Shown here: in pieces, positions 43,849 to 64,000 of the stretch | Layout: each line of letters opens with the position of its first letter | Position numbering within the stretch: the first letter of the stretch is position 1 | From: Paeniglutamicibacter gangotriensis Lz1y | GTDB taxonomy: Bacteria; Actinomycetota; Actinomycetes; Actinomycetales; Micrococcaceae | DNA length: 64,000 nucleotides | Direction of reading: 5' to 3' | Assembly (NCBI RefSeq): GCF_000348945.1 | Contig: NZ_AOCK01000003.1 | Coordinates: 248,001-312,000, forward strand | Position numbers and translations under genes: made by a program | The notes under the pieces: model-generated | What the model was told of the DNA's origin: nothing | Seen by the model: only the letters and a program-made list of their open reading frames with translations | Databases searched by the model: none

Positions 43849-45099
43849 CTACGAGGCCTCAATAATCATGCCTGCGGCTACGGTGTTGTTGGTGACTTCA
43901 TCAATGAGAATAAAGCCTCCGGTGGTTCGGTTTTTGTGATAGGAATCCGCGAGTAATGGCTGCGTGGTCCGTATCGAGATTCGGCCTATTTCGTTCAGGG
44001 TCAGATTCGTTGCGTCCTCGTCTCGGTGCAGAGTGTTAATGTTCAGCCCATAACGCAGTTCCTTAATCAAAGCCCGAGTCGATTTGGTCGTCTGCTTGAT
44101 CCCTAGCTTCTGCCCCACTTTCATGGGTTTATCACTCATCCAACAAATCATGGCCTCGATGTTCTGTGCCACTTGAGGTTGGTTGTTGGGCCGCACGATC
44201 ATATCGCCGCGGGAAACGTCCAGATCATCTTCCAGTCGCACTGTCACGGACATCGGTGGGTAAGCCAATTCCACCGGACCGTCAGCAGTTGACACTTCCT
44301 TGATTGTTGAAGGAATGCCGCTTGGCAAAACCACCACCTTGTCCCCCGCTTTCATAACACCGCTGGCAACCTGGCCGGCGTATCCCCTGTAGTCATGGTG
44401 TCCATTGTTGTGCGGACGAATGACGTATTGGACAGGGAATCGCACGTCAACCATGTTCGAGTCGCTGGCTGTCTGGACGTTTTCCAAGTGATGCATCAGC
44501 GACGCACCTTGGTACCAGGGCATGTTTTCTGAACGTCTCACCACGTTGTCGCCAGTCAATGCAGAGACTGGGATGACTTGGACATCTGCAATATTCAAAC
44601 GAGCCGCATAGTCGGTAAATTCCCGACGGATGTCTTCAAAGACTTCCTGTGACCAATCAACGAGGTCCATTTTGTTTACGGCGATCACCAGGTGTGGAAC
44701 CTCCAAGAGAGAGACCAAGAAGGCGTGGCGGCGCGATTGTTCGACCAGTCCCTTGCGCGCGTCCACCAAGACAATGGACAAATCTGAGGTCGAAGCCCCC
44801 GTGACCATATTGCGTGTGTACTGGATATGACCGGGTGTATCGGCCACAATAAATTTGCGATTTGGGGTGGAGAAGTACCGGTAGGCGACATCGATGGTGA
44901 TCCCTTGCTCGCGTTCGGCCCGTAGGCCGTCAGTAAGTAAGGCTAGATCGACGTATTCAGAACCACGCTCGTGGCTTGTCTTCTCAACCGAATCCAACTG
45001 GTCTACAAAGATCGCTTTAGAGTCAAAAAGTAGACGTCCAATGAGCGTGCTCTTTCCATCATCCACTGAGCCAGCAGTAGCAATGCGTAGCAGGTCCAT
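43849..45099 (-). CDS. cysN: Sulfate adenylyltransferase large subunit (GTPase) CysN
   Basis: 416 residues from ATG 45099, one base after the cysD stop; the frame is open to 45171 but the conserved start DLLRIATAGSVDDGKSTLIG fixes the choice. It is an EF-Tu-like GTPase: P-loop GSVDDGKST (10-18), DTPGHIQYTRNMVTGAS, NKMDLVDW, then two beta-barrel domains. GTP hydrolysis drives APS formation by CysD. The length fits CysN alone, with no fused APS kinase; that activity is encoded separately by cysC at 47 kb. Codon use is more AT-rich than in the core genes to the left. Confidence 0.95.
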   Translation of the reverse strand: MDLLRIATAGSVDDGKSTLIGRLLFDSKAIFVDQLDSVEKTSHERGSEYVDLALLTDGLRAEREQGITIDVAYRYFSTPNRKFIVADTPGHIQYTRNMVTGASTSDLSIVLVDARKGLVEQSRRHAFLVSLLEVPHLVIAVNKMDLVDWSQEVFEDIRREFTDYAARLNIADVQVIPVSALTGDNVVRRSENMPWYQGASLMHHLENVQTASDSNMVDVRFPVQYVIRPHNNGHHDYRGYAGQVASGVMKAGDKVVVLPSGIPSTIKEVSTADGPVELAYPPMSVTVRLEDDLDVSRGDMIVRPNNQPQVAQNIEAMICWMSDKPMKVGQKLGIKQTTKSTRALIKELRYGLNINTLHRDEDATNLTLNEIGRISIRTTQPLLADSYHKNRTTGGFILIDEVTNNTVAAGMIIEAS

Positions 45100-45100
45100 T

Positions 45101-46030
45101 TTAGAAATACCCTTCCTTCTTGCGGTCTTCCATCGCCGCCTCGCTGACTTGGTCATCCCCTCGGGTTGCACCGCGCTCGGTGATGCGCGTTGCAGCTACT
45201 TCTTCCACAATCGCTCGTGACGTCGTCGCAGAAGAAGATACTGCCGCGGTGAGGGTGGCATCCCCCACGGTGCGATATCGGACCATCTCAGTTCGCACGA
45301 TTTCATTCTCACGCGGTTGGCAGAATGGGTGGACCGCAAAAAGCATCCCGTGGCGGTCAAATACTTCGCGGCGGTGCGCAAAATAGATCGACGGCAAGAG
45401 GACGTTTTCACGTTCGATGTAGTTCCAGATATCAAGTTCTGTCCAGTTGGACAGTGGGAAGACTCGGATGCTCTCACCGTGATTCAGCCGGCTGTTGTAG
45501 AGGTTCCACAGTTCCGGGCGTTGGTTTTTCGGATCCCACTGACCAAACTCGTCACGGAATGAGAACACCCGTTCCTTGGCACGGGCCTTCTCCTCGTCCC
45601 GGCGAGCGCCCCCCATCAAGGCGTTAAGCTGGTGACTTTCAATGGTGTCAAGAAGCACCGGAGTCTGGATACGGTTGCGCGAGCCGTTGCGCTCCTCGAC
45701 CACGTCCCCGGCGTCAATTGCGTCCTGGACAGAACCAACAATAAGTCGTACTCCTCGGCGGGCGACTTCGGCGTCCCGGAAGTCCAGAACTTCTTGGAAG
45801 TTATGTCCGGTATCGATATGGACGACAGGAAACGGAATAGCGGCCGGCGCAAAAGCCTTCGCTGCGAGGTGCAGCAGCACTGCCGAGTCTTTGCCCCCTG
45901 AGAAAAGCAGGCCGGGCCGCTCGAGTTCTGCGACAACTTCACGAATAATGAAGATCGATTCAGCCTCTAGTGCAGAGATCTGGTCCAGCTGAAATCGCAA
46001 GCTGGTAGCGGTAACATTTTTTACTTTCAT
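45101..46030 (-). CDS. cysD: Sulfate adenylyltransferase small subunit CysD
   Basis: A 309-residue ATP pyrophosphatase of the PAPS-reductase-like fold that makes APS from ATP and sulfate. The PP-loop SGGKDS is at residues 44-49. VVHIDTGHNFQEVLDFRD, GARRDEEKARAKERVFSFRD, WNLYNSRLNHGESIRVFPLSNWTELDIW and the C-terminal DRKKEGYF are diagnostic of CysD rather than CysH. GGGGGA lies seven bases before the ATG. It is co-transcribed with cysQ upstream and cysN downstream. Confidence 0.96.
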   Translation of the reverse strand: MKVKNVTATSLRFQLDQISALEAESIFIIREVVAELERPGLLFSGGKDSAVLLHLAAKAFAPAAIPFPVVHIDTGHNFQEVLDFRDAEVARRGVRLIVGSVQDAIDAGDVVEERNGSRNRIQTPVLLDTIESHQLNALMGGARRDEEKARAKERVFSFRDEFGQWDPKNQRPELWNLYNSRLNHGESIRVFPLSNWTELDIWNYIERENVLLPSIYFAHRREVFDRHGMLFAVHPFCQPRENEIVRTEMVRYRTVGDATLTAAVSSSATTSRAIVEEVAATRITERGATRGDDQVSEAAMEDRKKEGYF

Positions 46031-46075
46031 TGAGAATCCCCCAAGTTCAATGATCGAACGTCTTGATGTAGTTGG

Positions 46076-46897
46076 CTAAGAGTGCTCGCGGATTGCATCG
46101 AGCAAGGTGTCCTTCAAATCAGCGCGACAGACGAGTAGATCGGGAAGGTACGGATCGTCCCGGTTGTATTCAAGCGCTCTACCGTCGATCCGGCTCGTGT
46201 GCAGTCCCTTGCCAGCGGCAACGGCGACTGGTGCAGCCGAATCCCATTCAAACTGGCCGCCTGCGTGGATGTAAGCGTCAACTTCCCCACGTGCCACTGC
46301 GCAGACTTTGTAGCCTGCGGACCCCATGGGAACAAGTTCCACGTTTGTATGTTGCGCAAGCTGGTTAGTCACTTCTGGTGCACGGGTGCGTGAGACGGCA
46401 ATCCGTACTGGTCGCCCGTTGATTTCGGCCACGTCGAGCTGGCCGTCGTCACTCCCCAGCACTAAATCTAATCCGGGAAGTGCAACGGCGCCGGCAACGA
46501 GCGAGCCATTTTCCCATAATGCGACGTGCACGGCCCAGTCGCTCCGAAACTCGGAATACTCGCGTGTGCCATCGAGTGGGTCGATGATCCAGACCCTTTT
46601 GCTCTTCAACCGACGCTTATCGTCTAAGGCTTCTTCGGATAAAATAGCGTCTTCCGGATTCAGTTCCCTCAACGCGCGATCAAGGTACTGCTGAGATACT
46701 TTGTCTCCAGCGTCTTTGAGCGCGTGGCCTTCCAAACCGAGTTCACCGGCTTGAGCTCGAAGTTCTAGTAATTTTTTCCCAGCACTACCCGCTAGGTCAA
46801 TTGCTCGTTGCAGGTCTCCCACCTGAATGTCCCCCATTCCCCCATAAGAAAACCAAGATCTTCCCCAAGACCCATGGTGTTCCGCAATACTATCCAT
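46076..46897 (-). CDS. cysQ: 3'(2'),5'-bisphosphate nucleotidase CysQ (PAP phosphatase)
   Basis: 273 residues from ATG 46897 with GAGG eight bases upstream. It is an inositol-monophosphatase-fold enzyme: ILSEEALDD supplies metal ligands, VWIIDPLDGTREYSEFRSDW is the DPxDGT metal site, and QFEWDSAAPVAVAAGKGL is the C-terminal WDxAA motif. The family hydrolyses PAP, the by-product of PAPS-using enzymes, and sometimes PAPS itself. As first gene of cysQ-cysD-cysN it fits recycling of PAP from the sulfotransferase encoded 12 kb to the right. The first ~20 residues are extra. Confidence 0.92.
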   Translation of the reverse strand: MDSIAEHHGSWGRSWFSYGGMGDIQVGDLQRAIDLAGSAGKKLLELRAQAGELGLEGHALKDAGDKVSQQYLDRALRELNPEDAILSEEALDDKRRLKSKRVWIIDPLDGTREYSEFRSDWAVHVALWENGSLVAGAVALPGLDLVLGSDDGQLDVAEINGRPVRIAVSRTRAPEVTNQLAQHTNVELVPMGSAGYKVCAVARGEVDAYIHAGGQFEWDSAAPVAVAAGKGLHTSRIDGRALEYNRDDPYLPDLLVCRADLKDTLLDAIREHS

Positions 46898-46932
46898 GTT
46901 TGTACCTCAGATAGAAGGGGTTCGACCACACG

Positions 46933-46960
46933 GTTATAAATTGAGCTTGATCTGGCACAA
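46933..46960 (-). promoter_or_regulatory. Promoter of the cysQ-cysD-cysN operon
   Basis: On the minus strand TTGTGC (46960-46955), a 16-bp spacer and TATAAC (46938-46933) lie ~36 bp upstream of the cysQ ATG. The divergent cysC gene starts at 47014. Confidence 0.55.
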
Positions 46961-47013
46961 ACGTGTTTTCGAATCTAGTGTGGACTTCAGGCAGATACTT
47001 CTTGGGGGAGAGA

Positions 47014-48192
47014 ATGGCGAACTTTGACAACGATTTACTCAATAGTCCGTTGTTGCAGCTCGATTTCGAGCAATTGGACGTGCTTGAGTTAGTCCTTGGT
47101 GGGTTATTGGATCCTTGTTCCATTGAGCTGTCAAGCATTCCCCAATGGGCCGAAATCGGTGAGATCTCTCCATCGAAAGCCGATGGAAGCAAGGGCGTAT
47201 TACTAGCAGATCCAGATGGCACAGCCTTGGCGGTCGTGAATTACCGGGCTCTGGACGACGGGGATAAAGACAGTCACGAGGTCATAGGTGTCTGGCCACT
47301 GGCTAAGCCTGAGCACGGGTCATTCCGCGAACTCCGCATCACCTCTTCGTTAGGTTCACAACCGGTGGTGTTATTTGACCAGGCTCCGACTCCTTTGGAC
47401 ATCCAAGCGTTACGCTCAAGGCCTTCTTTGCCTGCCAACACCTGCTTCGTGCTGGTGTGCAACAGTTCCGGGTCTCGTGACCCCGCCCATATAGATCAAA
47501 TAGAGCAGTTGCAGGCCACCGCAGAAATTTTCGAGGATGTGAAAGTCGCTCACCTAGTGCTTCCCGATTCGACTTCCGAGCATCTGGCGATGGAACGACT
47601 TTCTTCGCATGTGGTTATCGATCTGCGTGGATTCAAGGATAATGCTGCCGCTACATCACAAGGTGTTGTATTCATGTTTAGTGGCCTGTCAGGCTCCGGG
47701 AAGTCCACATTGGCGCGCGCCGTTCAGCAGCAAATTCATCAGCATCTTCCACAACGCGCAGTGTTGCTCGATGGGGATGACATCCGACGGTTTATTTCCA
47801 AGGGTCTGGGGTTCTCCCGTGAGGACCGCGAGACCAATGTGGAGCGTATCGGGTGGATTGCTGCACGCATCTCCGAGGTCGGCGGTATCGCGTTGTGTGC
47901 ACCAATCGCCCCGTTCCACGCGACTCGTGCTGCGGTTCGTTCAATGACCACGCAAGTTGGCCGCTTTTACCTCATCTACGTGAGCACTCCTCTGGCAGTA
48001 TGTGAAGCACGAGACCGCAAAGGTTTGTATGCCAAGGCCCGAGCCGGGTTGGTCACGGACTTCACAGGCATAGATTCTCCCTACGAAGAACCGGTCGATG
48101 CAGATCTGATCCTGGATTTGTCGGTATTAGACGTTCAGACAGCTACGGAACAAGTCATAGGGCTATTGCGGACACAGCAGACTAATCTTTGA
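47014..48192 (+). CDS. cysC: Adenylyl-sulfate (APS) kinase CysC with ~200-residue N-terminal extension
   Basis: 392 residues from ATG 47014, preceded by GGGGGAG. The C-terminal ~180 residues are a complete APS kinase: Walker A GLSGSGKST (~224-232), VLLDGDDIRRFISKGLGFSREDRETNVERIGWIAARI, CAPIAPFHATRAAVRSM, FYLIYVSTPLAVCEARDRKGLYAKARAGLVTDFTGIDSPYEEP. It phosphorylates APS to PAPS. The N-terminal ~200 residues are not a recognisable CysN or ATP-sulfurylase catalytic domain; they may be a degenerate sulfurylase/PUA-like or regulatory domain. It is divergent from cysQDN and convergent with the permease gene. Confidence 0.93.
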   Translation: MANFDNDLLNSPLLQLDFEQLDVLELVLGGLLDPCSIELSSIPQWAEIGEISPSKADGSKGVLLADPDGTALAVVNYRALDDGDKDSHEVIGVWPLAKPEHGSFRELRITSSLGSQPVVLFDQAPTPLDIQALRSRPSLPANTCFVLVCNSSGSRDPAHIDQIEQLQATAEIFEDVKVAHLVLPDSTSEHLAMERLSSHVVIDLRGFKDNAAATSQGVVFMFSGLSGSGKSTLARAVQQQIHQHLPQRAVLLDGDDIRRFISKGLGFSREDRETNVERIGWIAARISEVGGIALCAPIAPFHATRAAVRSMTTQVGRFYLIYVSTPLAVCEARDRKGLYAKARAGLVTDFTGIDSPYEEPVDADLILDLSVLDVQTATEQVIGLLRTQQTNL

Positions 48193-48227: not shown

Positions 48228-49991
48228 TTAGAGCGGCCACACCAGCGGGACGACGGTCAGGGTCACCGCGGCGGTAACTAAGCTCATCGGAACGCCTATC
48301 CTGACAAAATCCGAGACCCGGTAACCGCCAGGGCCCATGACCATCAAATTTGTCTGATAGCCAATGGGAATAATGAAACTGGCTGAGGCAGCGGCCATCA
48401 CAGTGATGGCAAACGGCATAAAGTTGGCGCCTACAGTGTCGGCCACGGCCATGGCAATGGGAAAGACCAGTACCGCTGCTGCGTTGTTGGTCAGGAGCTC
48501 GGTAAAGCACAACGTGAGCAGGAAGACGAGCGCAAGTGCACCCCTGGGGCCGACATCGGCGATGAGCAGGGTGTCAGCGATCGTCGCAGCGGCCCCGGTT
48601 TTTACCATCGCTGCTCCCAAAGCAAATGACGCAGCAATCACGATGATGACCTGCAAGTCAATATGTCGTCGCACGTTACCCACCGAGAGACATCCGGTGA
48701 CCAGCATTGCTAGCGATGCCAGCAGTGCAGCCTGGATGACTTCCAGCACTCCGAACGCGTTCAGCAACACCATGCCCAGCAAAATCAATATAGCCCAGGG
48801 AGCCTTGCGGAAGTTGGCGGGGGCTACATCGCTGATACTGCTGACCAACATGAAGTCCCGGCGGAAACGGTAGTTCCGAACGAAGTCCACATTGGTTTCC
48901 AGCAGTAGAGTATCTCCCACCCTGAATTTGACGTCGCCGATCTTGCCGCGAAGCATTTGTCCTGATCGAGAGATCGACAGAATCACGGCGTGGTAGTGCG
49001 AGCGGAATTGATTCTCCTTGACAGTTTGACCGATTCCGGTGAAGTCCGGGCCGATAACGGCTTCAACCAATCGACGCTGAGAATGGCGAATACCCAGTTT
49101 GTTCACGTCTCCGGCGCTGGGCTCCAGACCCCGAATTTCACGAAGCTCACTTGCACACTGGGGTGCCCCGACGAAAATGAGGACATCGTTTGGGTCCAGA
49201 ATGAGCTCCGGGGTGACTTCCACGACCAAATGTTCATCCCGCTCAAGCCTGGTCAGAAATCCATGGACCAGACTACGCAGTCCTGCTGCCGCTACGGATT
49301 TTCCCACCAGGGGTCCGTTGGCTAGCACCCTGAACTCGACCGCGTATTCGCGAGCGGTCTGCATTTGCTCCACCGCGTCTTCTCGGTTGGGTAGCAGACG
49401 GTTGCCACACAAGGTGAGGAATATGGAGCCAACCACCGTCAAGGGAACGCCCACTGCTGCAATGTCGAACATCCTCAGGGACACGCCCTTTTCGGCCTGC
49501 AGCAGACCATCAATTACTAGGTTGGTGCTAGTACCAATCAGAGTCATCGTCCCGCCAAGGATAGCCATGTAACTCAGTGGAATGAGCATTTTGGATACGG
49601 GAATGCGCACCCGGGCCGACCAATCCTGAATGGCGGGCAAAAGCATGGCGACAACAGTGGTGTTGTTCAGAAATGCGCTCAGTCCTCCGACGGGAAGTAG
49701 CATTCGCAGATATGCTCCACGGATGCTTGAAGGCCGTCCCAGCAGGTTTTGTGCGATCCATTGCACCGCGCCTGTTTCACTTAGGCCCGCAGCCACCACG
49801 TAGAGTACGGCCACGGTGATGACCCCGGTGTTTGAAAACCCGGACAACGCCTCCACGGGGGTCAGGATGCCCATCAGCATGAGGGCTAGCGCGGCACCCA
49901 TCAAGATGATGTCCGCGGCAATTCTCGTGGCGGACAATAGCACCAGCACCGCTAAGACAATGGCCAGCGTCAACACGGCGTCGAAGCCCAC
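48228..49991 (-). CDS. DASS/SLC13-type permease with two RCK_C (TrkA-C) domains, probable sulfate transporter
   Basis: About 587 residues from GTG 49991, chosen for the GGGGGAG just upstream; an ATG at 50021 would add ten residues. Membrane helices occur at both ends (residues ~1-200 and ~395-587). Duplicated family motifs are NNTTVVAMLLPAI with GTSTNLVIDG in the first half, and TNNAAAVLVFPIA with PIGYQTNLMVMGPGGY in the second. The cytoplasmic middle (~205-380) holds two TrkA-C/RCK_C domains (EFRVLANGPLVGKSVAAAGL and RRLVEAVIGPDFTGIGQTVK). This layout is shared with sulfate permeases such as the algal SAC1/SLT type. Sulfate as substrate is inferred from the flanking cys genes. Confidence 0.85.
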   Translation of the reverse strand: MGFDAVLTLAIVLAVLVLLSATRIAADIILMGAALALMLMGILTPVEALSGFSNTGVITVAVLYVVAAGLSETGAVQWIAQNLLGRPSSIRGAYLRMLLPVGGLSAFLNNTTVVAMLLPAIQDWSARVRIPVSKMLIPLSYMAILGGTMTLIGTSTNLVIDGLLQAEKGVSLRMFDIAAVGVPLTVVGSIFLTLCGNRLLPNREDAVEQMQTAREYAVEFRVLANGPLVGKSVAAAGLRSLVHGFLTRLERDEHLVVEVTPELILDPNDVLIFVGAPQCASELREIRGLEPSAGDVNKLGIRHSQRRLVEAVIGPDFTGIGQTVKENQFRSHYHAVILSISRSGQMLRGKIGDVKFRVGDTLLLETNVDFVRNYRFRRDFMLVSSISDVAPANFRKAPWAILILLGMVLLNAFGVLEVIQAALLASLAMLVTGCLSVGNVRRHIDLQVIIVIAASFALGAAMVKTGAAATIADTLLIADVGPRGALALVFLLTLCFTELLTNNAAAVLVFPIAMAVADTVGANFMPFAITVMAAASASFIIPIGYQTNLMVMGPGGYRVSDFVRIGVPMSLVTAAVTLTVVPLVWPL

Positions 49992-50213
49992 AATACTCCC
50001 CCTGTATTGTTTGCCATCCACCCCATATGGACGGCCAAACTAAGTCCATCTCATGCAGAAGAAGAAGAATCCCGGAATCTGCCATTCGATAATTTAACCC
50101 AGTTACTGGATTCATCATTGCAGAGCAAAGCGCATCAGTCTATGAAGATTTATACTCTTTCGCAGTGCAACAGGGTGCGTTAAGCTCTCGACACCTAGCA
50201 TCGGCCACAGCAA

Positions 50214-50271: not shown

Positions 50272-53200
50272 TCAGTCAATGGCTCCAAGCACCACCGTAC
50301 CCATTGCCGCATTGGCGGTGCTACTGTCGGCCACCCCTGTCAGGTTGCCGACTGGGCCCGCACCGACCGGACCTCCCGAATCGGCCAACATCCATGACAG
50401 ATGCCCGCCTCCGCTACCGGCTCCGGTTTGTCGGACTGCCAACGTGGACGGAACCTGCCAGGCGGTAGTTGCCGCTGTCTTGTCTGTCCAGTAGGACAAT
50501 GCCCAATCGCCTGAGGCTGCTTCAGCTTCGGGAGTTTTGTGCTGATCCGTTGAACCGACTTCGGGTTCAAACACAAAGGACGCTGAGCTCACAGTCGCAT
50601 TGCGGTAGACCGAGACCACCAGTGAGCCTCGGGCATATCCATCGGAGGAGACGTTCACCGTGGAACCGGCATCTGCTGCCGTGGCCACCTTGGAGAACAT
50701 CATTGCCTGCATGGAGGCCGTCGCCACATGTGCCCGTTGCTCCCATGCTGATGGAATCGAAGGCGCGGAGGCGAATTGATTGGTCGAGAAAATCCCGACC
50801 AGCAGGTCTCCTGCTTCAACGCCACCTGGGATCTGTACCGAATGCGTCATTGCATTGACCGTCCCGGAGTTCGCGGCCGAAGCCACGAATGCCACATCAG
50901 ATTCAGGCGGTGGGGCATCATTTGCTTCAACTTCAACCGTCTGGCTCACGGTATTGGTGGCGCCAGCGGGGTCGGCGACTTCCAGGCTCACGGTATAGCT
51001 GCCGGCTTCGGGGAAGGAATGACTGAAGCTTTCGCCCACGGCCAGCTGCGACCCCTCAACGGTCCAAGCGTATTCCAGGAGGGAACCGTCCGGATCCGCT
51101 GAGCCTGTCCCATCAAAGATGCAGGACAGGAACGTACAGTCCCAGTCGAATGCCGCCACTGGGTCTGCATTGTCCCCGCCGTCGTCACCATCGGGGCTTC
51201 CGGCGAGCACCACCGATGCCATCACGGCATTGGCTGTGGTTGAATCCGCGGTGGCTGTCAGTCCGCCGGTAGCACCGGCGCTAACGGCGCCATTCGAGTC
51301 CGCCAACATCCAGGACAGGTGTCCGGCACCGCTGCCGGCGCCAGTTTGCCGTACCACTGTGCTGTCGGGCAATACCCACGTACCAGTCGTCGCGGTTTTA
51401 TCGGCCCAGTAGGACATCAGCCAACTGTTTTCTTGGGCAGTGAGCGCAGGGGTCGTATGCACGGAGCCGCTGGAGGTCTCTGGCTGCATCGCAAACGACG
51501 CGGCGTCTACCGTGGCATCACGGTAAACCGATATGACCAGCGAGCCTTTGACCCAGGAACTGGTAGTCACTGTCAGAGTAGTGCCAGCATCCGAGCTCGC
51601 CGCCACCTTGGAGTAAACTGCGCCACTCATCGATGTGGTGGAGGCATCCGCCCGGGTTTCCCAACCGTCCGGTGCGCCAAGGGTGGTGCCACCATTATTG
51701 GTTGACAACATTGCCACCATCAGGTCACCTTCCTGCACTCCAGAGGGGATGGTCACCTGATGATTCAGTGCCGTATCCACCCCGGCATTTGCCGCTGAAT
51801 CAACGAACGAGACGTCGTTTCCTGGTTCTGGTCCAGGATCCGCTGTCACCGACACCGACAAGGTGAAGGTGGCGGTCTCATTCGAATCATCTGTCACCGT
51901 CAAAGTCACCTGGTAGGTGCCAGCCGCAGCAAAGGCGTAGGTAGCCACCGTGCCGGTTGCTACTTCAACCCCGTCAGTGCTCCAGCTGTAGCCGATGATT
52001 TCACCGTCAGGATCGTTTGAGGCCGTCCCATCAAAGGTGCACGAGAGGAAGACACAGTCTTGGCTGAAAGTGGCCTCAGGAAGCTGGTTCGGTGTCGGCG
52101 ATACCTCAACGTCCACTTCTGTGGTGTTGGTTGCCCCATCGTCATCGGTGACCGTCAAGCTCACCGTGTAGGTACCCGCCAAGGGGAACTCGTAGCTGAA
52201 CTCCGCCTCGTCGCCACTGCCACCGTCGCTGGTTGTCCAGGAGAATGTGACAATCTCACCATCTTGGTCGGTTGAGCCGCCACCGTTGAAGGTACAGCTC
52301 AACTCATTACAGATGCTTTGGATTGCTGCTTCCGGCGTCTGGTTTGGTGACTCGGTCACGGTCACCGTAGTGCTCGTGCTCGCGGTGGCACCCTCGTTAT
52401 CGGTGACCGTCAAGGTCGCTTCGAAGTCACCAGCTTGGCTGTAACTGTGTTCGACTTCCTCTCCGGTTGCCGTGGTTCCGTCCCCGAAGTCCCAGTCATA
52501 GGAATCAATTTCTCCATCGGGGTCGGTGGATTCAGCACCGCTAAAGACACAGTCTAAATCAGTACATTTCTGGGTCATCGATGCCGTTGGGGATTGGTTC
52601 GGTAGCGGTGGAGCGCCGTCACTTTCGGTGGATATCAGTGCCCGGCTTGTCCAGTTCACTCCATCAACTTCCGGACCGCTGACCACCTGAGTTGGACCGT
52701 TGGCCGTACCATCGGTGACTGTCTGGGTCCATGGAGCTGCCAACAGCTGTCCCTCGGAGTTCGCCAAATACAACTGGTCCTCCGCGAGGAACATGCCGTG
52801 CACATTACTCCAGGTGATTCCGGAGTCCCCGGTGGCAACTGTGAAACGCTCAGCGCCCACAATGCCGCTGTCCAAATCGAAGTACCTCATGAACAACGAG
52901 TTCTGCCCGCTGAGAGTGAAGTAGATGCGATCGTTCTTGAACACCAAGCCGCTCATCTGTTGCATCTCACCGGCATAGTTACTTAATCCATAGAGATCAT
53001 GAACAGTAGCTGAGCCCAGTGCCGCACCATTAAACGAACGGCTGTGGAACTCGCCATTGCTCGTAGCCAGATACATTCGGTCATTGGCCACAAAGCCCCC
53101 GCGAACCGCATCCCAGGCCACATCACCGGTAATCTCAGCTGGCCCCTTCGAAGCGGCAAGACTACCGTTGTAGTAGGTCTCCGTCACCTGGTTTTCGGTA

Positions 53201-56821: not shown

Positions 56822-58032
56822 GCAGCATCACCAACGAACGACTCGATTCGCTTCTTGAGACGGTGCAACAGCTCTACCCGTCTTCCCAAGTGCGCGTGGT
56901 GCGAAAACTATCGGCACAACAGCAGGGCCTGCGGCTGGTGCCGTCTCTCAGCAATCCTCGCCTAGCAGTACCGGCGACGGTGCCCAGCGCTGCCATGTGG
57001 TCAGCCATTCGCCCATGCGCCAGCGACACTGCGAGCAACAAGGTTCGCCGGTATGGACTGGCCGCAATGCTACGCAGCCCATTGCTCCGCTGGTTGATGC
57101 CTTCGGGAATTGTCATCGATGCAGCGCCAGATTCCATCTTGGAAGTTTTTGAAAATGTGTTCGGTCGGGAAGTTTGCTTCAGTCTGATGACCGGTACCGC
57201 CAGAGCCAATCGGAAACCCGTGCTGGGTGTTTTTGATTCTTCTGGTAATGAGCTCGGCTTCGCCAAAGTCGGTTTCTCCGAACTTGCCAAGGACCTGGTC
57301 CAGAACGAATACCATGCCTTGCAGGCGATGAATAAAGTGCAACATCCGGGGATCCAGGTGCCCAGAGTTCTGAACCTAACCCCGTGGAACGACGCTCCTG
57401 TGCTCATCATGTCGGCGTTGCGTCCCGATGCATGGCAGCAGGCAATCGATCTTCCTGTGGCTACGGTACGGGCAATCATAGCCAGTGCCCCGGTGCGTAG
57501 TGAACGGATCAATCAATCTCAGTGGTTCTACACTCTCTTGACCACTTTGCAAGATCTACCTAGCGAAGCCGAGGCAGCGCCGCTGATTGACTTATTGCGG
57601 GCCATGGCAGTCCGGTTCAACCACCTTGAGGTGGCTACCGGTGCATGGCACGGAGATTTTGGGGCATGGAATATGGCTAGAACCTCCGGAGCACCGATGG
57701 TGTGGGATTGGGAAAGATATTCCCTAGATATCCCGCTCGGACTTGATCTTTTCCATTTTAGCTCGCACGAGTCACTGCGTCGGATCGGCGATTCCGAGTC
57801 GGCCATCACGGCACTGACCAATCCTCATCTGGCTCGGGCTGCCCACTCGCTGCATCGGCAATATACCGATTCCTCAGAAAGTATCGACTTGGCCCAACTG
57901 TTGCCGCTGATGTATTTGGCGACGATGGCTGCTCGCTTCATCACCGACGGGTTCCGTCATTCAGTCGGCGACACCTTGGCTTTAGGACAGTGGCACGTAT
58001 CCGTGCTCAAAGAACTCTATTCAAAGCGCTAA
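56818..58032 (+). CDS. APH/choline-kinase-like phosphotransferase in the polysaccharide operon
   Basis: 404 residues; the ATG overlaps the polymerase stop. The C-terminal half holds a protein-kinase-like catalytic site: GAWHGDFGAWNMA (His278, Asp280, Asn285) and MVWDWERYSLDIPLGLDLFHF with the metal Asp at ~297. This matches the HGDxxxxN...DWE pattern of aminoglycoside/choline/fructosamine kinases. FAKVGFSELAKDLVQNEYHAL gives the expected ATP-binding lysine and an Asn-Glu pair. The first ~130 residues are not recognisable. Lying between polymerase and sulfotransferase, it probably phosphorylates a sugar or lipid precursor of the polymer; an antibiotic-resistance role is unlikely. Confidence 0.7.
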   Translation: MSSITNERLDSLLETVQQLYPSSQVRVVRKLSAQQQGLRLVPSLSNPRLAVPATVPSAAMWSAIRPCASDTASNKVRRYGLAAMLRSPLLRWLMPSGIVIDAAPDSILEVFENVFGREVCFSLMTGTARANRKPVLGVFDSSGNELGFAKVGFSELAKDLVQNEYHALQAMNKVQHPGIQVPRVLNLTPWNDAPVLIMSALRPDAWQQAIDLPVATVRAIIASAPVRSERINQSQWFYTLLTTLQDLPSEAEAAPLIDLLRAMAVRFNHLEVATGAWHGDFGAWNMARTSGAPMVWDWERYSLDIPLGLDLFHFSSHESLRRIGDSESAITALTNPHLARAAHSLHRQYTDSSESIDLAQLLPLMYLATMAARFITDGFRHSVGDTLALGQWHVSVLKELYSKR

Positions 58033-58044
58033 TCGGAGGTAACA

Positions 58045-58914
58045 ATGACCAGTCAAGAATTCGTCGTGGAAGACACGATTCAGCACTCCGCACGTCAGTT
58101 CGCCCGAACTACACTCGTGAGCTTCGGACAGCTGACCTCAGCCTTACGGATGCCACCATCATTCATCATCGCCGGGGCCCAGCGCTGCGCGACAACCAGC
58201 CTATTTCGGATGCTGTCTCGTCATCCGCAGGTGCGCCAGCCTACCCTCAACAAGGGCATCCATTTCTTTGACACTGCCGAGCGCTTTAGCCGGGGCGCGA
58301 GTTTCTATGCTGGGCACTTTCCGTTACGTCTCCCATGGAACGACCGCAGAATCAGCGGGGAAGCCAGCCCCTACTATCTGTTTCATCCGCTGGCCATGCA
58401 ACGGATTGCCCAGACAGCGCCACAGGCTCAGGTGATCGTGTTGTTACGCGACCCCGTGGAACGGGCCTTCTCGGCCTATAAGCAGGAGAAGGGTCGCGGA
58501 TTTGAAACGTTGGGTTTTGAAGAAGCCTTAGCCTCGGAGGAAGAACGGCTAACGGGCGAAGAGGCTAAAATCATTGCCGACCCCGAATACCAGTCGTTCG
58601 CTCACCAGCACTTCGGCTATGTAGCCCGCGGGCACTACACCTATCAACTTGAGCGAGCAAATAAAGCCCTGGCTCCAGGTAAGTTGACCGTTCTCGACGC
58701 CGATGCGTTCTTCAACCCCGGATTGGAAGGCTGGGACGCGTTGTTGGGGCAGATCGGGCTTGATCCATGGCGGCCCCAAGAAATCATTCGTTCCAATGCG
58801 CGGCCTGGAGATCCGATGCCTGAGCACCTGCGTGCCAGCTTAGAGGCCGAATTTCATGGTGAGAATAGTCAGCTTAGCGAGTATTTGGGTTTTATCCCCA
58901 GCTGGCTAAAATGA
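58045..58914 (+). CDS. PAPS-dependent sulfotransferase
   Basis: A 289-residue cytosolic sulfotransferase-fold protein that moves sulfate from PAPS to an acceptor hydroxyl. The 5'-phosphosulfate loop reads FIIAGAQRCATTSLFRML (43-54; the usual Lys/Gly positions are Arg47 and Ala49). The 3'-phosphate site reads VIVLLRDPVERAFSAYKQEKGRG with Arg135 and Ser143. HFFD (73-76) and GEASPYYLFHP follow the heparan/GlcNAc sulfotransferase pattern. GAGG lies six bases before the ATG. It sits in the polysaccharide operon between the kinase and the Wzz-like gene, and PAPS can come from cysDNC 10-15 kb to the left. Polymer sulfation is therefore the best hypothesis. Confidence 0.9.
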   Translation: MTSQEFVVEDTIQHSARQFARTTLVSFGQLTSALRMPPSFIIAGAQRCATTSLFRMLSRHPQVRQPTLNKGIHFFDTAERFSRGASFYAGHFPLRLPWNDRRISGEASPYYLFHPLAMQRIAQTAPQAQVIVLLRDPVERAFSAYKQEKGRGFETLGFEEALASEEERLTGEEAKIIADPEYQSFAHQHFGYVARGHYTYQLERANKALAPGKLTVLDADAFFNPGLEGWDALLGQIGLDPWRPQEIIRSNARPGDPMPEHLRASLEAEFHGENSQLSEYLGFIPSWLK

Positions 58915-59777
58915 TTGCCAAGTTATCCAGTAAACACCGCCGACGGCAGGAAGCCAGACCGCAAGACCATACTGTCACCGGTGTTTTTCTCACCCCGCTG
59001 CGCAGTCCGTTGCGGACCATTCTCTGTTTCCTTGTGGTCTTCGCCAGCTGCGCGGCACTGTACTTCTCAACGCCAGCTAAGTATTCGGCTCGAATGGACC
59101 TGGTGGTGGTGGCAGTTACCGGCCCGTCTCAGGTGGCCAGTGACCGCGATATCAGCATCGACTCCGCCGTCCAGATTCTCTATTCGGATGCAGTCGTGGG
59201 TGAAACTGCCCGTGAACTGAATTATCCCGGGCGTTCCACTGGTTTGCTCGATGAACTGAGCATCTCGCCACTAATCAATTCAAGGATCTTGCGATTGTTC
59301 GTGGCCAACGAGGATCCTCATCAAGCACTTGCTGCTGTGAGCCTTCTGACCGAAAATTTTTTGGCTGAACGCGAGGCACGGCTCGTTACGCTAGCTCAGA
59401 CCCGACGCAGCGAACTACAGCGGAGCATAGACTCACTGGCGCAACAGGTCAGCGACTTGGACCTCACTGAGATCTCCAGCGCTGACCGTAGGGAATTCCT
59501 CTCCGAGCTATCCAATGAGCGAACTCAATTGCAGTTCGCGATTGCGGCAATAGATACCCTGCCTCCCGAACCGGGCTTCATTTCACGCCAAGCCACCTTA
59601 CCAACCACCGCCAATCGGCCATCTGCACCCATCTATATTGGCTCGTCATTTGGCCTTGCCATCATTCTGTCTTTCGTTATCGCGCCCAGCCGACGGGTTT
59701 TCGCCGGCTTTAGCTGGCCCACGAAAACTGAACAAAAATCACAACAAATACGGATCCAAGGGAGTTCAAATGTCTGA
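58911..59777 (+). CDS. Wzz/YveK-like polysaccharide co-polymerase (chain-length determinant)
   Basis: 288 residues, overlapping the sulfotransferase stop by four bases. Two membrane segments (about 36-53 and 240-257) flank an extracytoplasmic domain with a coiled stretch (~150-215, LVTLAQTRRSELQRSIDSLAQQVSDL). The basic N-terminus and the C-terminal tail are cytoplasmic. This is the Wzz topology, with the YSARMDLVV strand after helix 1 and a Pro-rich segment (LPTTANRPSAPIY) before helix 2. No tyrosine-kinase domain is attached. It should control chain length with the Wzy-like polymerase. Confidence 0.8.
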   Translation: MIAKLSSKHRRRQEARPQDHTVTGVFLTPLRSPLRTILCFLVVFASCAALYFSTPAKYSARMDLVVVAVTGPSQVASDRDISIDSAVQILYSDAVVGETARELNYPGRSTGLLDELSISPLINSRILRLFVANEDPHQALAAVSLLTENFLAEREARLVTLAQTRRSELQRSIDSLAQQVSDLDLTEISSADRREFLSELSNERTQLQFAIAAIDTLPPEPGFISRQATLPTTANRPSAPIYIGSSFGLAIILSFVIAPSRRVFAGFSWPTKTEQKSQQIRIQGSSNV

Positions 59778-60708
59778 AATACCCTCAGCGCAGCGCTTAC
59801 CCTCTGTGACTGCAGTCATTGCCACGCAGGATCGGGTTGAGCTGCTCCAGCGCGCAGTCACGGCCATTTGGAATCAGTCCTATGCCGGGTCTATCACTAT
59901 CAATATCGTTTACGACAATCATCTAGCCCATCCTGAGCTGGCCCGTCGTGCGGAGAATCGGGAAGTCCGGGTACTTTCCAATGACCGTACCCCGGGACTG
60001 GCTGGGGCTCGGAACACCGGGATCCTGGCCACCCAGACCGATCTGGTGGCGTTCTGCGACGATGACGATGCTTGGAAGCCTGACAAGCTCTCCAAGCAGG
60101 TGGAATTGTTGAGCTCACAGTCGGCCCAAGCCTGCGTGTCTGGCATCGAGATCGAGTATGGGGATAAACGCATTGTGCGGATACCTCAAGTTGCTTCGCT
60201 CAACAGCGAAACGATTACCCGGGATCGGCTGACCGGGGCCCACCCTTCAAGCTATCTCTTCGACCGTCACTTTCTCGCTGAACAAATCGGTCTGGTAGAT
60301 GAGAGCATTCCCTATGGTTATGGGGAAGACTATGATCTGCTCATTCGGGCGGCGAAGCACGGACGTGTGGCGTTGTTACCGGAACCGGCCGTCAACGTAC
60401 TTTGGCATAAGGGTGGCTCTTACTTCTCACGCCGTTGGGAAGCCATGGAAGCCGGTATCAGCTTCCTGATCGTTAAACATCCAGAACTCACCGCGACTAA
60501 ACCTACCGCGGCATGGCTGCACGGGCAGCGGGCTTTTGCTTTGGCCTCGCTCAAAAACCGTCGCAGCGAAGCAGTGAAGGTCGCCACGCAATCAATCAGG
60601 CTCAATCCCAGACAACCCCGAGGTTATTTGGCCCTTGCAGTATGCACCGGGGCGCTCAGCCCACAGTGGGTGGTTAACCGCCTGAATGAGAAAGGGCGCG
60701 GAATCTAG
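59770..60708 (+). CDS. Family 2 glycosyltransferase
   Basis: 312 residues from ATG 59770, overlapping the Wzz-like stop by eight bases, with AAGGGAG upstream. GT-A fold: VTAVIATQDRVELLQRAVTAIWNQSY, PGLAGARNTGILATQTDLVAFCDDDDAWKP with the metal-binding DxD, and GYGEDYDLLIRAAKHGRVAL with the catalytic ED pair. It transfers an unknown sugar onto a lipid-linked intermediate or the growing chain at the inner face of the membrane. It is the last gene of the plus-strand operon. Confidence 0.9.
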   Translation: MSEIPSAQRLPSVTAVIATQDRVELLQRAVTAIWNQSYAGSITINIVYDNHLAHPELARRAENREVRVLSNDRTPGLAGARNTGILATQTDLVAFCDDDDAWKPDKLSKQVELLSSQSAQACVSGIEIEYGDKRIVRIPQVASLNSETITRDRLTGAHPSSYLFDRHFLAEQIGLVDESIPYGYGEDYDLLIRAAKHGRVALLPEPAVNVLWHKGGSYFSRRWEAMEAGISFLIVKHPELTATKPTAAWLHGQRAFALASLKNRRSEAVKVATQSIRLNPRQPRGYLALAVCTGALSPQWVVNRLNEKGRGI

Positions 60709-60720
60709 TCAAACAGTTTC

Positions 60721-60758: not shown

Positions 60759-60830
60759 AAGGCCTTGCGCCCTTCCCACTTGCGCATGTCTGCCACCGGT
60801 AACAGAGGATATTTCGGTTCGTGGGAGACT

Positions 60831-61406
60831 TCAGAAAGAAATGGCCTGCTTAATCCGGCGCAGGATACGGTTCAGATTTCTTGTGGATCCATTCATGGTC
60901 TTTTCCAGCTCTTGGGCAAGTTTCACCCCGGCCGCTTCCGGTGCGGCCAGTCGAGGCTCAGTGCGCAGACCAGCAGGGTCCAACATCGCTTTATCCAGTG
61001 CCTGGTGAAGCGCCTCACGCTCGTCGACATAGATCGCGTTTCCATGCTCGGCCATGACTTTGGTGAATTCGATCTGGTGCCCATCTACCACCTCGCGCAG
61101 CTGTGGAAAGCGAGGCACCGCAATCGGGATGATACCAACTTCGCGAACATCAAGAATCGATCCCGGGCCACCTTGCACCACGACAACGTCCGCCTGCTGA
61201 TAAATCTTCAATAGATCCGCGCGCGCCAGACGGTCTTTTCCAACGCCGTTGCGGGGTATCCGGCTCGCCCCATGCTGAACGAAGACACTGGGGGCTTCGC
61301 TTTGCTGTTCCACCCACTGATCGACCCAATCGATGAGTCGGTCGAAGAGGTGGTGGTCGGTCCCCACGGAGACTACGAGCCGGTACTTTCCCGAATCAGT
61401 AGTCAC
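60831..61406 (-). CDS. PssE/Alg13-like glycosyltransferase catalytic subunit
   Basis: 191 residues from GTG 61406, which overlaps the pssD-like stop (GTGA). RLVVSVGTDHHLFDRLIDWVDQW at the start, then VFVQHGASRIP and a GT28-type donor-binding region ADVVVVQGGPGSILDVREVGIIPIAVPR, match the C-terminal half of family 28 transferases (Alg13, PssE, EpsF, Cps14G). These work as a two-subunit enzyme with a membrane-recruiting partner. It adds the second sugar of a lipid-linked repeat unit. The C-terminus is basic and helical. Confidence 0.85.
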   Translation of the reverse strand: MTTDSGKYRLVVSVGTDHHLFDRLIDWVDQWVEQQSEAPSVFVQHGASRIPRNGVGKDRLARADLLKIYQQADVVVVQGGPGSILDVREVGIIPIAVPRFPQLREVVDGHQIEFTKVMAEHGNAIYVDEREALHQALDKAMLDPAGLRTEPRLAAPEAAGVKLAQELEKTMNGSTRNLNRILRRIKQAISF

Positions 61407-61852
61407 AGGACTGCCCCAATGTTCACTGCCTCGGGATAATACTTCTTTTGTTCTTCCCACTGCACGCAGAAAAGATCACTGAGTGGATAACAGATTCTGC
61501 CACTGAGTGTGGGCATCGTAATCCGGTCAAAACATTCCAAATAGACTGTTTTGATCCCCATTACATAGGCGATGACGAAAAACGGGACACTGGCCCCGGC
61601 ACCAACTGACATAATCACGTCTGGGCGTTCGCGGCGTAATGTTCGAATGGCTAGGAAAAAGTTCCGCACCGCATTCGGGATGTTTCTGGTGGTCGGCCAA
61701 TAACACCACGTGACTTCTTCATTGGCGAGCGCTTTCTCGACCTCGGGACGTTGGAACGTGACCCAGCTGCGTTGGTGTTGCTCCCACCACTGGCGTAGCG
61801 GGAGCAGTTGGGCCAGATGCCCACCGGGTGAAGTAACAAATAGGATTTTCAT
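61403..61852 (-). CDS. PssD/Alg14-like glycosyltransferase membrane-anchor subunit
   Basis: 149 residues from ATG 61852 with GGGAAAG six bases upstream. It begins KILFVTSPGGHLAQLLPLRQ (the GGHxxxLLxL motif of Alg14/PssD/CpsF), continues VIMSVGAGASVPFFVIAYVMGIKTVYLECFDRI, and ends with CVQWEEQKKYYPEAVNIGAVL. It recruits the PssE-like partner to the membrane to form an active heteromeric transferase. The overlapping pair forms an operon running toward the plus-strand cluster. Confidence 0.88.
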   Translation of the reverse strand: MKILFVTSPGGHLAQLLPLRQWWEQHQRSWVTFQRPEVEKALANEEVTWCYWPTTRNIPNAVRNFFLAIRTLRRERPDVIMSVGAGASVPFFVIAYVMGIKTVYLECFDRITMPTLSGRICYPLSDLFCVQWEEQKKYYPEAVNIGAVL

Positions 61853-61962
61853 AGTGGCTTTCCCAGAACCATCCCCTTGCCCAAAAACGCTGTTGGGCCT
61901 AGCAGCTCCCCCAGCTGCCCGGTTGGGTCCTGAAATTCTTTGGGGTCCAGCAGATGATGAGC

Positions 61963-62670
61963 TCACCAGCTCCATTCCCAGCCGTAGGATCCTTGGAATC
62001 CGCCGAGCGTAAAGCTCGCTGACCCTGCGCCTTCGGGCATATCTAAGACAACTAGACCACTTTGGTGTTCTCCTGGGTCGATGGGTGAGGGGACTCTTTC
62101 GTCCTCAGTGATGCAAGCCTCCGCATTGCCCACCGGGTCAATCACCGATTCTCCCTCGGCATCCCATGCCCTAAATTCGTGCACTGAAAGATAGAAATAC
62201 GGGAAACCTGATTTGGCAAGTTCTTCGTAGGCTTCGATGTCAAAATCAAGCGCTACGAATTGTCCGTTAATGCTCTGCGGAGCATCGTCAGCTGTGCATT
62301 CGAAATTGGCCGTGACATTGTTGGCGGTAAATGCCGCGAATTCCGTGCCATGATCTAGGTCCCTGAATACGGCCGGAGCTTCTTCTTCGACATCAAGATT
62401 TCCACGGTCGTTAAGACCCAAACTTTCAAGTTCATTAGGATCCGGAGCATCGACAGAGGACGTGGGAGCATCGCTTAATAGATTCAGCGAGGTCCCGTCG
62501 GTCGCTTGCGATTCTTCCGCTGCAGAGCTCGTTTCCGGCGTTGATGCAGCTTCCGTTGTTGATACCACTTCCGGTGTTGACATCACTTCCGGTTCTGCAT
62601 CACCGGAGGTGCACCCCACCAGCCCCAATGTCAGTGCCAAAACCGCAATAGAAAAGACGGTCCTTTTCAA
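61963..62670 (-). CDS. Secreted lipoprotein of unknown function
   Basis: 235 residues from TTG 62670, chosen because GGGGAGG lies six bases upstream and it gives a clean lipoprotein signal: KRTVFSIAVLALTLGLVGC with lipobox LVGC and mature Cys at about 20. A Ser/Thr/Glu-rich linker (~25-75) is followed by a compact domain (~80-235) with two further cysteines (FECTADD, EACITED) and many aromatic residues near the end (GSYGWEWSW). I do not recognise the domain; size and strands recall telokin/DUF4352-like beta sandwiches. Position suggests an accessory role in polymer export or attachment. Confidence 0.7.
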   Translation of the reverse strand: MKRTVFSIAVLALTLGLVGCTSGDAEPEVMSTPEVVSTTEAASTPETSSAAEESQATDGTSLNLLSDAPTSSVDAPDPNELESLGLNDRGNLDVEEEAPAVFRDLDHGTEFAAFTANNVTANFECTADDAPQSINGQFVALDFDIEAYEELAKSGFPYFYLSVHEFRAWDAEGESVIDPVGNAEACITEDERVPSPIDPGEHQSGLVVLDMPEGAGSASFTLGGFQGSYGWEWSW

Positions 62671-62835
62671 GATGAGCCTCCCCAAAGACTGTTAGACCGC
62701 GAACACCCCTATGTTCGGTAGTTTGATCTTAGCCCGAGCAGGGTCGCTTAGGTAGTGGTTTCCAAGCCTTTTTCCCACAGCCCAGATTCATCAGGCATAG
62801 CGTGGGTCGGGCAACAAGGTTCAGGAAACGCAAGA

Positions 62836-62875
62836 GGTGGAGGACGGTTCCAGAATTGTGAAACCGTCCTCCACC
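62836..62875 (-). terminator. Hairpin terminator after the GH26-like gene
   Basis: A perfect 14-bp stem (62836-62849 with 62862-62875) with a 12-nt loop lies 54 nt past the stop on the minus strand. The gap 62671-62929 shows nothing else clear. Confidence 0.75.
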
Positions 62876-62929
62876 GTAATCATCACTGACTGCTATCGGG
62901 CCAGTCGGTGAAGATCAGTAAGAAATTGC

Positions 62930-64000
62930 TTACTTATTCAAGAATGACTCACGTGCCACGTTGATGTAGTCCTCGTCGAGGAAGTCTTGGAAGGCGTTCA
63001 GTGAAGAGGCTTTCGAATCCACTTGGGTGATGCCGACGCTCAACTTGTCACCGTTGGGAGTTACTCCCATGCTGTCCCAGTAGACCAGGGCCTTGAGCTT
63101 GGGCAGATCCTGTAGCTGCTCGCTGGCAGTTTCCCAGAAATCTGCTTTATAGCTTGGGTATGCAGCGTCTTCGTCAACGCCCCACTCAGCGAGCATCTGT
63201 GGCTTGCTCGGGTACTTCTCCGCGGCCCAGTTGTAGAATCCAGGCCAAGTCTTCTCATTATGAGTGCGGTTTACCATGCCCTCCATATCGGTGAGCCAGA
63301 CCGGTGGCTTACCGAAGGCGTAAGGGTCTTGGGCGATCCAGTCGACGACATCGTTGCCGGGGTAAAGTTCCTCGAACCAGGACATTTCTCCCCACTTCTG
63401 GATACCGGTGTAGTTCATGACGGTTACCATGTTCGATGCGCCATTGTCGCGCAATACCTTAACAACGTGGCGGTAGAAGTTAGCGTAATCCTTGGCGGTC
63501 TGACCGGAGCCAGCAGCCTGGTTGACCTCGTCTTCCATCTCAGCGTTCAACGACAGGAAGAACTTCTGTGATGCGTTGCTGCTCATGTGCTGAGCCAAGG
63601 ACTTGAGGTAGGTATCGGCTTTGCCGTCAGCTACTTCTTTCCAAGTCAGACCGCTCGGCTTCCAGTTGTAGAACAGGATGCGGTTGGCGTCCTGCTCGTT
63701 CTGCCGATTGAGCTCGTTGTTATTCGGGAACATGGCACTCTGTCCACGCTTGTAATAGTGAGCGATATCCATCGGACGCTCGGCGGTCTGCTCAAAATTC
63801 AGCAGTGCCTGGTCCCACGACTCACCTTTAAGTGGATTTGCTGCGGCCCCAAACCAGATTCCGCAGTTCGGCACCAATATTTCCGATACGGTGCAGTTCG
63901 CGTCGCTGTCCACGTCGGGCGTGGTCTCGATGACGTCTTCAGGAACTGGGGCAGGTTCGAGCCCGCCCACCTGTGGTGGGGTGCTGTTCTTAGTGCTGAG
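62930..64000 (-). CDS. GH26-like glycoside hydrolase, partial (cut by right window edge)
   Basis: The 3' end of a minus-strand gene; at least 356 residues are visible and the frame stays open to the edge. After a Pro/Thr-rich linker, GIWFGAAANPLKGESWDQAL and RPMDIAHYYKRGQS begin a TIM-barrel domain. KFFLSLNAEMEDEV supplies a Glu in the acid/base position, and PQMLAEWGVDEDA supplies the likely nucleophile Glu after strand 7. The pattern resembles GH26 (beta-mannanase) enzymes found beside exopolysaccharide genes. The protein is probably secreted, since it begins beyond the edge and has an extracellular-style linker. It could trim or release the locus polymer. Substrate unknown. Confidence 0.75.
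   Translation of the reverse strand, partial: LSTKNSTPPQVGGLEPAPVPEDVIETTPDVDSDANCTVSEILVPNCGIWFGAAANPLKGESWDQALLNFEQTAERPMDIAHYYKRGQSAMFPNNNELNRQNEQDANRILFYNWKPSGLTWKEVADGKADTYLKSLAQHMSSNASQKFFLSLNAEMEDEVNQAAGSGQTAKDYANFYRHVVKVLRDNGASNMVTVMNYTGIQKWGEMSWFEELYPGNDVVDWIAQDPYAFGKPPVWLTDMEGMVNRTHNEKTWPGFYNWAAEKYPSKPQMLAEWGVDEDAAYPSYKADFWETASEQLQDLPKLKALVYWDSMGVTPNGDKLSVGITQVDSKASSLNAFQDFLDEDYINVARESFLNK

Follow-up and report, generated by a model that had tools for sequence, protein, structure and literature searches.

We analyzed a 64,000-nucleotide stretch of the genome of Paeniglutamicibacter gangotriensis Lz1y (contig NZ_AOCK01000003.1, here C3, positions 248001-312000; hereafter the window), in which genes for activating sulfate lie next to genes for building a polysaccharide. 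The host genome measures 4.32 Mb in 20 contigs and has a completeness of 100. Beside a tRNA-Gln (TTG) gene (42412-42484, minus strand), GC content drops from about 65% to about 55% and recovers only near C3:327-328 kb, so the block at 43849-64000 is the left part of a low-GC island of about 37 kb that has the tRNA gene at its left edge and runs beyond the window's right end. The original prediction had assigned to this block all the genes needed for sulfate uptake, activation to 3'-phosphoadenosine 5'-phosphosulfate (PAPS), removal of the by-product 3'-phosphoadenosine 5'-phosphate (PAP), sulfate transfer and polymer synthesis, and we found each of them, namely a permease, cysD, cysN, cysC, a cysQ-type gene, a sulfotransferase, and GT2, PssD and PssE-like glycosyltransferases. 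It had overlooked a second sulfotransferase, a WbaP/WcaJ-type transferase, a Wzx flippase, regulators, a kinase-like gene and a GH26 domain.

The sulfate-activating genes occupy the left end of the block. The gene cysN (43849-45171, minus strand; true start probably near 45099), for the GTPase subunit of ATP sulfurylase, scores above the NF003478 cut-off, has GTPase motifs and is unfused to cysC, and cysD (45101-46030, minus), for the catalytic subunit, scores above the TIGR02039 and NF009214 cut-offs. The cysQ-type gene for a PAP phosphatase (46076-46897, minus) matches PF00459, stays under the NCBIfam CysQ cut-offs and has the PAP phosphatase 5djf as its best solved relative (E 7e-64). On the plus strand, cysC (46963-48192; above the TIGR00455 cut-off, PF01583) encodes an adenosine 5'-phosphosulfate (APS) kinase in residues 233-385, preceded by a reduced ATP-sulfurylase-like part. 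The family profile covers the ATP sulfurylase-APS kinase 3cr8 (2e-117), and because the sulfurylase part is shortened in CysC, CysD and CysN should be needed beside it. An active ATP sulfurylase in this N-terminal part was considered and rejected, as the stretch aligned to what we take to be the catalytic motif of 3cr8 is incompletely kept. The neighboring CitMHS/DASS-type permease with TrkA_C domains (48228-50021, minus; PF03600 above, TIGR00785 below cut-off) probably takes up sulfate, judging from its context.

Sulfotransferase A (58045-58914, plus; PF13469 and PF00685) is of the heparan-sulfate type, with the motifs QRxxTT and RDPxxRxxS for the 5' and 3' phosphates of PAPS and with profile similarity to 3rnl (E 1e-35), heparan sulfate 3-O-sulfotransferase 5 (HS3ST5, 4e-28) and NDST (6e-26); residues R47, T50, T51, R135, P137, R140 and S143 are invariant in 20 sequences. 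Sulfotransferase B lies just past the window (C3:315946-317094) and has weaker, distant matches, the best to 4gox (3e-9), followed by tyrosylprotein and aryl sulfotransferases. Also past the window are the Wzx flippase, a chain-length/tyrosine-kinase-like protein and the WbaP/WcaJ-type initiating transferase. The polymerization genes had been predicted as Wzy-like (55421-56821, plus) and Wzz-like (58911-59777, plus), and neither has a Pfam or NCBIfam match of its own. The Wzy assignment stood through homologues in related loci, one of which has a weak, sub-threshold PF04932 match, and the membrane protein at 58911-59777 is at most a putative Wzz. Sugar transfer is represented by the GT2 glycosyltransferase (59770-60708, plus; longest open reading frame from 59638), the PssD/Alg14-like subunit (61403-61975, minus; NF041549 above cut-off) and the PssE-like subunit (60831-61460, minus; GT28 C-terminal, below cut-off). 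A probably secreted protein with CBM96 and GH26 domains (62930-64000, minus; GH26 match to 2vi0, 9e-31) is cut by the window end and extends to C3:312612.

The absence of cysH and sulfite reductase, which had been noted for the block, extends to the whole genome. PF01507, the family of CysD and CysH, has a single genome-wide match, which is the island cysD, and PF01077 (sulfite/nitrite reductase) has none, while the same profile matches 11 of 14 control genomes. No second PF01507 gene and no PF01077 match was therefore found that could mark a separate assimilatory cys cluster elsewhere in the genome, a check that the original prediction had proposed, and as cysH and sulfite reductase, which we took as the mark of such a cluster, were found neither in the island nor in the rest of the genome, the island cys genes have no known sulfate-assimilation route to serve. 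For APS kinase, there is one strong match in the island and a weak, partial match in a frame of about 530 amino acids common to all 15 genomes of the genus, and both PF00685 sulfotransferases lie inside the island. Beyond the island, the genome thus yielded no additional cysD, no other full APS kinase and no other PF00685 sulfotransferase, in a search that did not extend to a Sat-type sulfurylase, a second cysN or PF13469. The prediction had also named its own counter-case, a genome without other sulfate-activation genes in which the cluster is needed for cysteine synthesis; the first half holds for cysD and full APS kinase, but the second does not, since the genome also lacks cysH and sulfite reductase.

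The genus follows the same pattern. In 10 of the 15 genomes, a sulfite reductase is accompanied by two PF01507 genes, which we interpret as cysD and cysH, and there is no full APS kinase (cysD and cysN were confirmed in 8 of these, the eight that were fetched). The host and one congener (G002) combine APS kinase with a single PF01507 gene and have no PF01077, and three genomes (G001, G008 and G011, the last only 88% complete) have no PF01507, PF01077 or full APS kinase. By these profile matches, assimilation in the genus runs without APS kinase, both APS-kinase species are without the known reductive route, and sulfate assimilation seems to have been lost repeatedly.

Co-occurrence across the family ties sulfate activation to the sulfotransferase. 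We scanned 295 Micrococcaceae genomes, one per species, scoring the best first-look candidates of each with a two-row sulfotransferase profile (A1, E ≤1e-10) and an APS kinase profile (E ≤1e-20). Sulfotransferase A was found in 17 genomes and APS kinase in 21, and every genome with the sulfotransferase also has the kinase (hypergeometric 3.5e-24, kinship uncorrected; 8 genera within 10). The two genes lie on one contig in 13 of the 17, 1.3-31.5 kb apart, and on different contigs of draft genomes in the other four (G018, G042, G048 and G064). In the 13 same-contig loci, cysQ, cysD, cysN, cysC, the WbaP/WcaJ-type transferase and Wzx were matched every time, and Wzy, GT2 and the kinase-like gene in 12, the locus of G239 being cut by the contig end. 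The suggested search for cysC and cysQ alongside this sulfotransferase therefore gave cysC in 17/17 genomes and both genes in 13/13 same-contig loci. Glutamicibacter creatinolyticus (G135, NZ_CP034412.1) has counterparts of all 20 tabulated island genes, in the same order and at 47-92% identity. The congener G002 has a divergent locus adjoining glmU (identity for cysN 82%, cysD 79%, cysQ 62%, cysC 48%, permease 69%, sulfotransferase A 43%), in which sulfotransferase B, the CBM96-GH26 protein and the Wzz-like protein had no match. A chance neighborhood of cys and polymer genes is rejected by this co-occurrence, the close linkage and the conserved gene content.

Related gene sets were also seen in three genomes without sulfotransferase A. 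Two of them (G026, C18 from 12149; G183, C9 from 14455) have a fused cysN-cysC with cysD, cysQ and a DASS permease, and G084 (C1 from 322527), whose genome has a sulfite reductase, carries cysQ-cysN-cysD-cysC in a lower-GC stretch.

The island CysD and CysN also belong to a lineage of their own. Of 19 retrieved regions that flank a sulfite reductase or assimilatory cysD gene, 18 yielded CysD and CysN and one (G084) neither; no match to cysC, cysQ or the permease was found in any of the 19. Island CysN shares 44-50% identity with the assimilatory CysN of 18 family genomes but 70-92% with CysN from 12 other sulfotransferase loci. In maximum-likelihood trees, a single branch divides the 18 assimilatory rows from the island-type rows (26 for CysN, 28 for CysD), with support of 100/100 for CysN and 100/99 for CysD, and 10 genomes hold one copy of each type. 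The CysN tree leaves out L081 and L071, which have short frames; S_G026, S_G183 and S_G084 are counted on the island side though without sulfotransferase A, and G276 is in neither tree. The tree program flagged that long branches meet (the assimilatory rows of G135, G105 and G203 against the island side), and the division is that of trees which include these rows. The view that the cys genes are not assimilatory, put forward at the outset, is thus borne out by the missing reductive branch, the pattern among congeners, co-occurrence with linkage and the separation of the trees. In the CysN tree the host copy groups with that of G135, from another genus (97/90), apart from the congener G002, and the GC content and third-position GC (GC3) of the island are low relative to the neighboring glmU. 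This nesting and base composition speak for horizontal acquisition, and the sequences suggest that it was fairly recent.

In a wider search, a scan of named genomes with profile A1 gave 41 loci (stretches of ≤21 kb; genes matched by tblastn, E ≤1e-6) from Arthrobacter, Glutamicibacter, Paenarthrobacter, Nocardioides, Marmoricola, Mumia, Phycicoccus, Janibacter, Actinomadura, Nonomuraea, Catellatospora and relatives. The kinase-like gene was present in all 41, Wzy in 40, Wzx in 37, GT2 in 31, the CBM96-GH26 gene in 30 and sulfotransferase B in 25. Genes for PAPS supply were found less often (cysC in 22, cysQ in 17, cysD and cysN in 14 each), with at least one in 29 of the 41. In a sample of 396 genomes of the phylum, scanned with a 20-row sulfotransferase profile (A3, E ≤1e-30), APS kinase occurred in 38 of 40 genomes with this sulfotransferase type versus 154 of 356 without it (Fisher 3.7e-11); the two genomes that break the rule, G345 and G485, have completeness values of 82% and 89%.

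The closest described system is wps-1 of Actinoplanes missouriensis (PMC13390465, June 2026), whose main text lists WpsA (GT2), WpsB and WpsH (sulfotransferases), WpsC (GT26), WpsE (GH26), WpsF (methyltransferase), WpsG (Wzx), WpsI (kinase-like), WpsJ (Wzy) and WpsK (Wzz). According to that text, squashed sporangia result when wpsA, C, G, H, I, J or K is deleted, wpsB mutants look normal and release about one-tenth of the spores, the GT26 and methyltransferase genes are needed, wpsD (DUF4262) is dispensable, and the mutants are indistinguishable by eye on agar (PMC13390465). Deletion of the adjoining AMIS_7390, of the ATP sulfurylase/APS kinase family, "unexpectedly" caused severe defects; the authors tie this family to sulfur amino acids, and the word PAPS is absent from the main text (PMC13390465). 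We propose that AMIS_7390 supplies PAPS to WpsH and WpsB, which would explain the phenotype.

Our comparison with wps-1 is one of gene content, with Catellatospora vulcania (L064, Micromonosporaceae) as sequence stand-in for A. missouriensis. Its gene order (cysC, CBM96 protein with the GH26 part aligned, Wzz, Wzy, kinase-like gene, sulfotransferase A, flippase, methyltransferase, sulfotransferase B, GT2) agrees with that of wps-1 together with AMIS_7390 in reverse. Like the described wps-1, the island has two sulfotransferases of different type, one of them heparan-sulfate-type, a kinase-like gene that is the WpsI counterpart by gene order, GH26, GT2, Wzx, Wzy and Wzz, and a linked gene of the ATP-sulfurylase/APS-kinase family. 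Unlike wps-1 as described, it holds a full cysD, cysN, cysC and cysQ set with a permease, PssDE and a WbaP/WcaJ-type transferase, in a genome without an assimilation pathway. As no Pfam match to GT26, methyltransferase or DUF4262 was found among the island proteins scanned, we class the locus as a wps-1 variant rather than a member.

Sulfate-donor genes in polysaccharide loci have precedents in Gram-negative bacteria. The accounts consulted describe fused cysN/cysC, cysD, cysQ and a sulfate permease beside sulfotransferases in Cobetia marina KMM 1449 (PMC11766843), and cysN, cysC and cysD beside sulfotransferases in a capsule locus of Vibrio sp. KMM 8419 (PMC11641403), each with a reported sulfated polymer structure. 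The island combines cysD, cysN and cysC with sulfotransferases in a polysaccharide locus in the same sense, and as in Cobetia also has cysQ and a permease, but the described systems are Gram-negative, export through an ABC transporter (Kps) and use other sugars. Synechan (xss) of Synechocystis resembles the island in being Wzx/Wzy-type with two sulfotransferases and a STAND-type regulator, and its product contains sulfate by composition analysis; it differs in its cyanobacterial host, its eight glycosyltransferases and a main text in which "PAPS" is absent (PMC8205485). The Micrococcaceae assimilatory cysD-cysN cluster shares homologous CysD and CysN, but these form a separate lineage, stand with cysH and sulfite reductase, and have no cysC, cysQ or permease match beside them. 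Given the Actinoplanes, Cobetia and Vibrio loci, the locus is less unique than its first description, which knew of few Micrococcaceae examples, had supposed, and it is also larger than the window.

Taken together, we consider it very probable that the island is a Wzx/Wzy-type exopolysaccharide locus with its own sulfate-donor supply, a reading built on gene content, motifs, the absence of cysH and sulfite reductase, co-inheritance and the CysDN lineage. Sulfate would enter, probably through the DASS-type permease, and be converted by CysD and CysN to APS and by CysC to PAPS. A repeat unit begun by the WbaP/WcaJ-type transferase and lengthened by PssDE and GT2 would be sulfated, while lipid-linked, by the two cytoplasmic sulfotransferases, with CysQ clearing PAP, before Wzx flips it and the Wzy-like protein polymerizes it; trimming or binding of the polymer may fall to the CBM96-GH26 protein and a malectin/PKD surface protein. 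As the host has no reductive branch, its sulfate activation would serve only polymer sulfation. We further think it likely, with somewhat less confidence, that the host lost assimilation and keeps the sulfate activation of an acquired island only for a Wzx/Wzy surface polymer, that the system is co-inherited across several actinobacterial families, and that sulfated surface glycans are a regular, overlooked trait of Actinomycetota.

Several observations weigh against this reading. We infer the enzyme activities, the order of steps and the sulfate on the polymer from sequence; for the Actinoplanes polymer too, the authors state that sulfation awaits verification, and they report that transcriptional control of AMIS_7390 differs from that of wps-1 (PMC13390465). 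The permease has weak PDB relatives (VcINDY 1e-12, SLC13 members down to SLC13A1 at 3e-6), and the Wzz assignment is weak. Within the family, 4 of 21 APS-kinase genomes are without sulfotransferase A (G276, G026, G183 and G084), among them G276 with cysD-cysQ-WbaP-cysC-LuxR-glmU in a similar locus that starts at the contig start; the sulfotransferase frame of G064 contains a stop; and sulfotransferase B was matched in 9 of 13 loci, four of these matches being short and about 31% identical. In the wider set, 12 of 41 loci have no PAPS gene within the flank examined; such genes were found farther off in 5 of these 12 genomes. Linkage is looser outside the family, as APS kinase is common in the phylum sample (192/396), and of six phylum genomes measured, four single-contig ones (G334, G406, G667 and G324) have sulfotransferase and APS kinase at least hundreds of kilobases apart, against 24 and 8 kb in G354 and G572.

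The strongest alternative is that PAPS is made but the sulfotransferases act on a small molecule, lipid or protein, the polymer genes being mere neighbors. Actinobacterial sulfotransferases for sulfolipids and antibiotics are known, sulfotransferase B has no close relative among solved enzymes, and either enzyme could act on a lipid or protein instead. We regard this as unlikely, as sulfotransferase A is closest to 3rnl and the heparan-sulfate enzymes and keeps company with Wzy, Wzx and the kinase-like gene in 40, 37 and 41 of the 41 loci, and as the Actinoplanes wpsH mutants described resemble flippase and polymerase mutants (PMC13390465). Considerably less probable is a displaced assimilatory cluster feeding cysteine synthesis. 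The lack of another cysD or full APS kinase in the genome would favor it, but neither cysH nor sulfite reductase was found in the genome; congeners with the assimilation set have no full APS kinase, CysN identity and both trees set the two types apart, and 12 of the 17 sulfotransferase genomes have a two-domain sulfite reductase. A decayed or silent island without present function, for which the fairly recent acquisition read from low GC/GC3 and CysN nesting might be cited, is the least credible of all, as the genes read are open frames with the tested motifs kept and the collinearity with 20 G. creatinolyticus counterparts gives no sign of decay.

Dedicated PAPS modules in capsule loci and the wps-1 cluster are already in print. 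As far as the literature was searched, the following are new: a Gram-positive Wzx/Wzy locus that carries the complete module, strict co-inheritance of that module within Micrococcaceae, a CysDN lineage of its own, and a host in which sulfate activation has no connection to assimilation; no description of such a locus in Micrococcaceae was found in a search whose coverage excluded most subscription papers and all bioRxiv preprints. Bacterial sulfated polysaccharides have been said, in the texts consulted, to be exclusive to cyanobacteria (PMC8205485, PMC13390465), although sulfated capsules are on record for Vibrio and Cobetia, and a conserved actinobacterial locus with dedicated donor supply would widen that picture. 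It would also account for the Actinoplanes sporangia ruined by loss of the "amino-acid" gene AMIS_7390. The system could be tested cleanly in a strain that lacks the reductive branch, where 35S-sulfate would be expected in the polymer and hardly anywhere else, and the locus points to bacterial heparan-sulfate-like sulfotransferases with a natural PAPS supply for polymer engineering.

The kinase-like gene (56803-58032, plus; longest open reading frame from 56659, true start unsure) encodes a protein of FN3K/APH fold with HGDxxxWN and WDWE motifs. Its AlphaFold model (mean predicted local distance difference test score 90.9) has FN3K and aminoglycoside kinases as closest folds, at 11-17% identity among the best 50 rows; the homologue in L053 matches PF01636, and its family profile gave nothing significant against PDB sequences. 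A resistance gene was rejected despite the aminoglycoside-kinase-like fold, as the gene accompanies polysaccharide genes in 41/41 loci, and the protein may act by phosphorylating one of the repeat-unit sugars. The surface protein of 1633 amino acids (50272-55173, minus), with Rax2-like propeller, malectin and PKD repeat matches, has homologues in other loci, and a putative lipoprotein (61963-62685, minus) is present in three related loci.

Integration at tRNA-Gln through direct repeats was rejected, as no copy of at least 12 tRNA bases and no flank repeat of at least 14 bases was found. At the same edge lies a TetR-family regulator (42405-43280), whose longest frame overlaps the tRNA gene and whose TetR domain begins near 42690. 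Two LuxR-type ATPase regulators of about 850 amino acids lie at the island's right end (C3:321803-326897) and are retained with the locus in Glutamicibacter.

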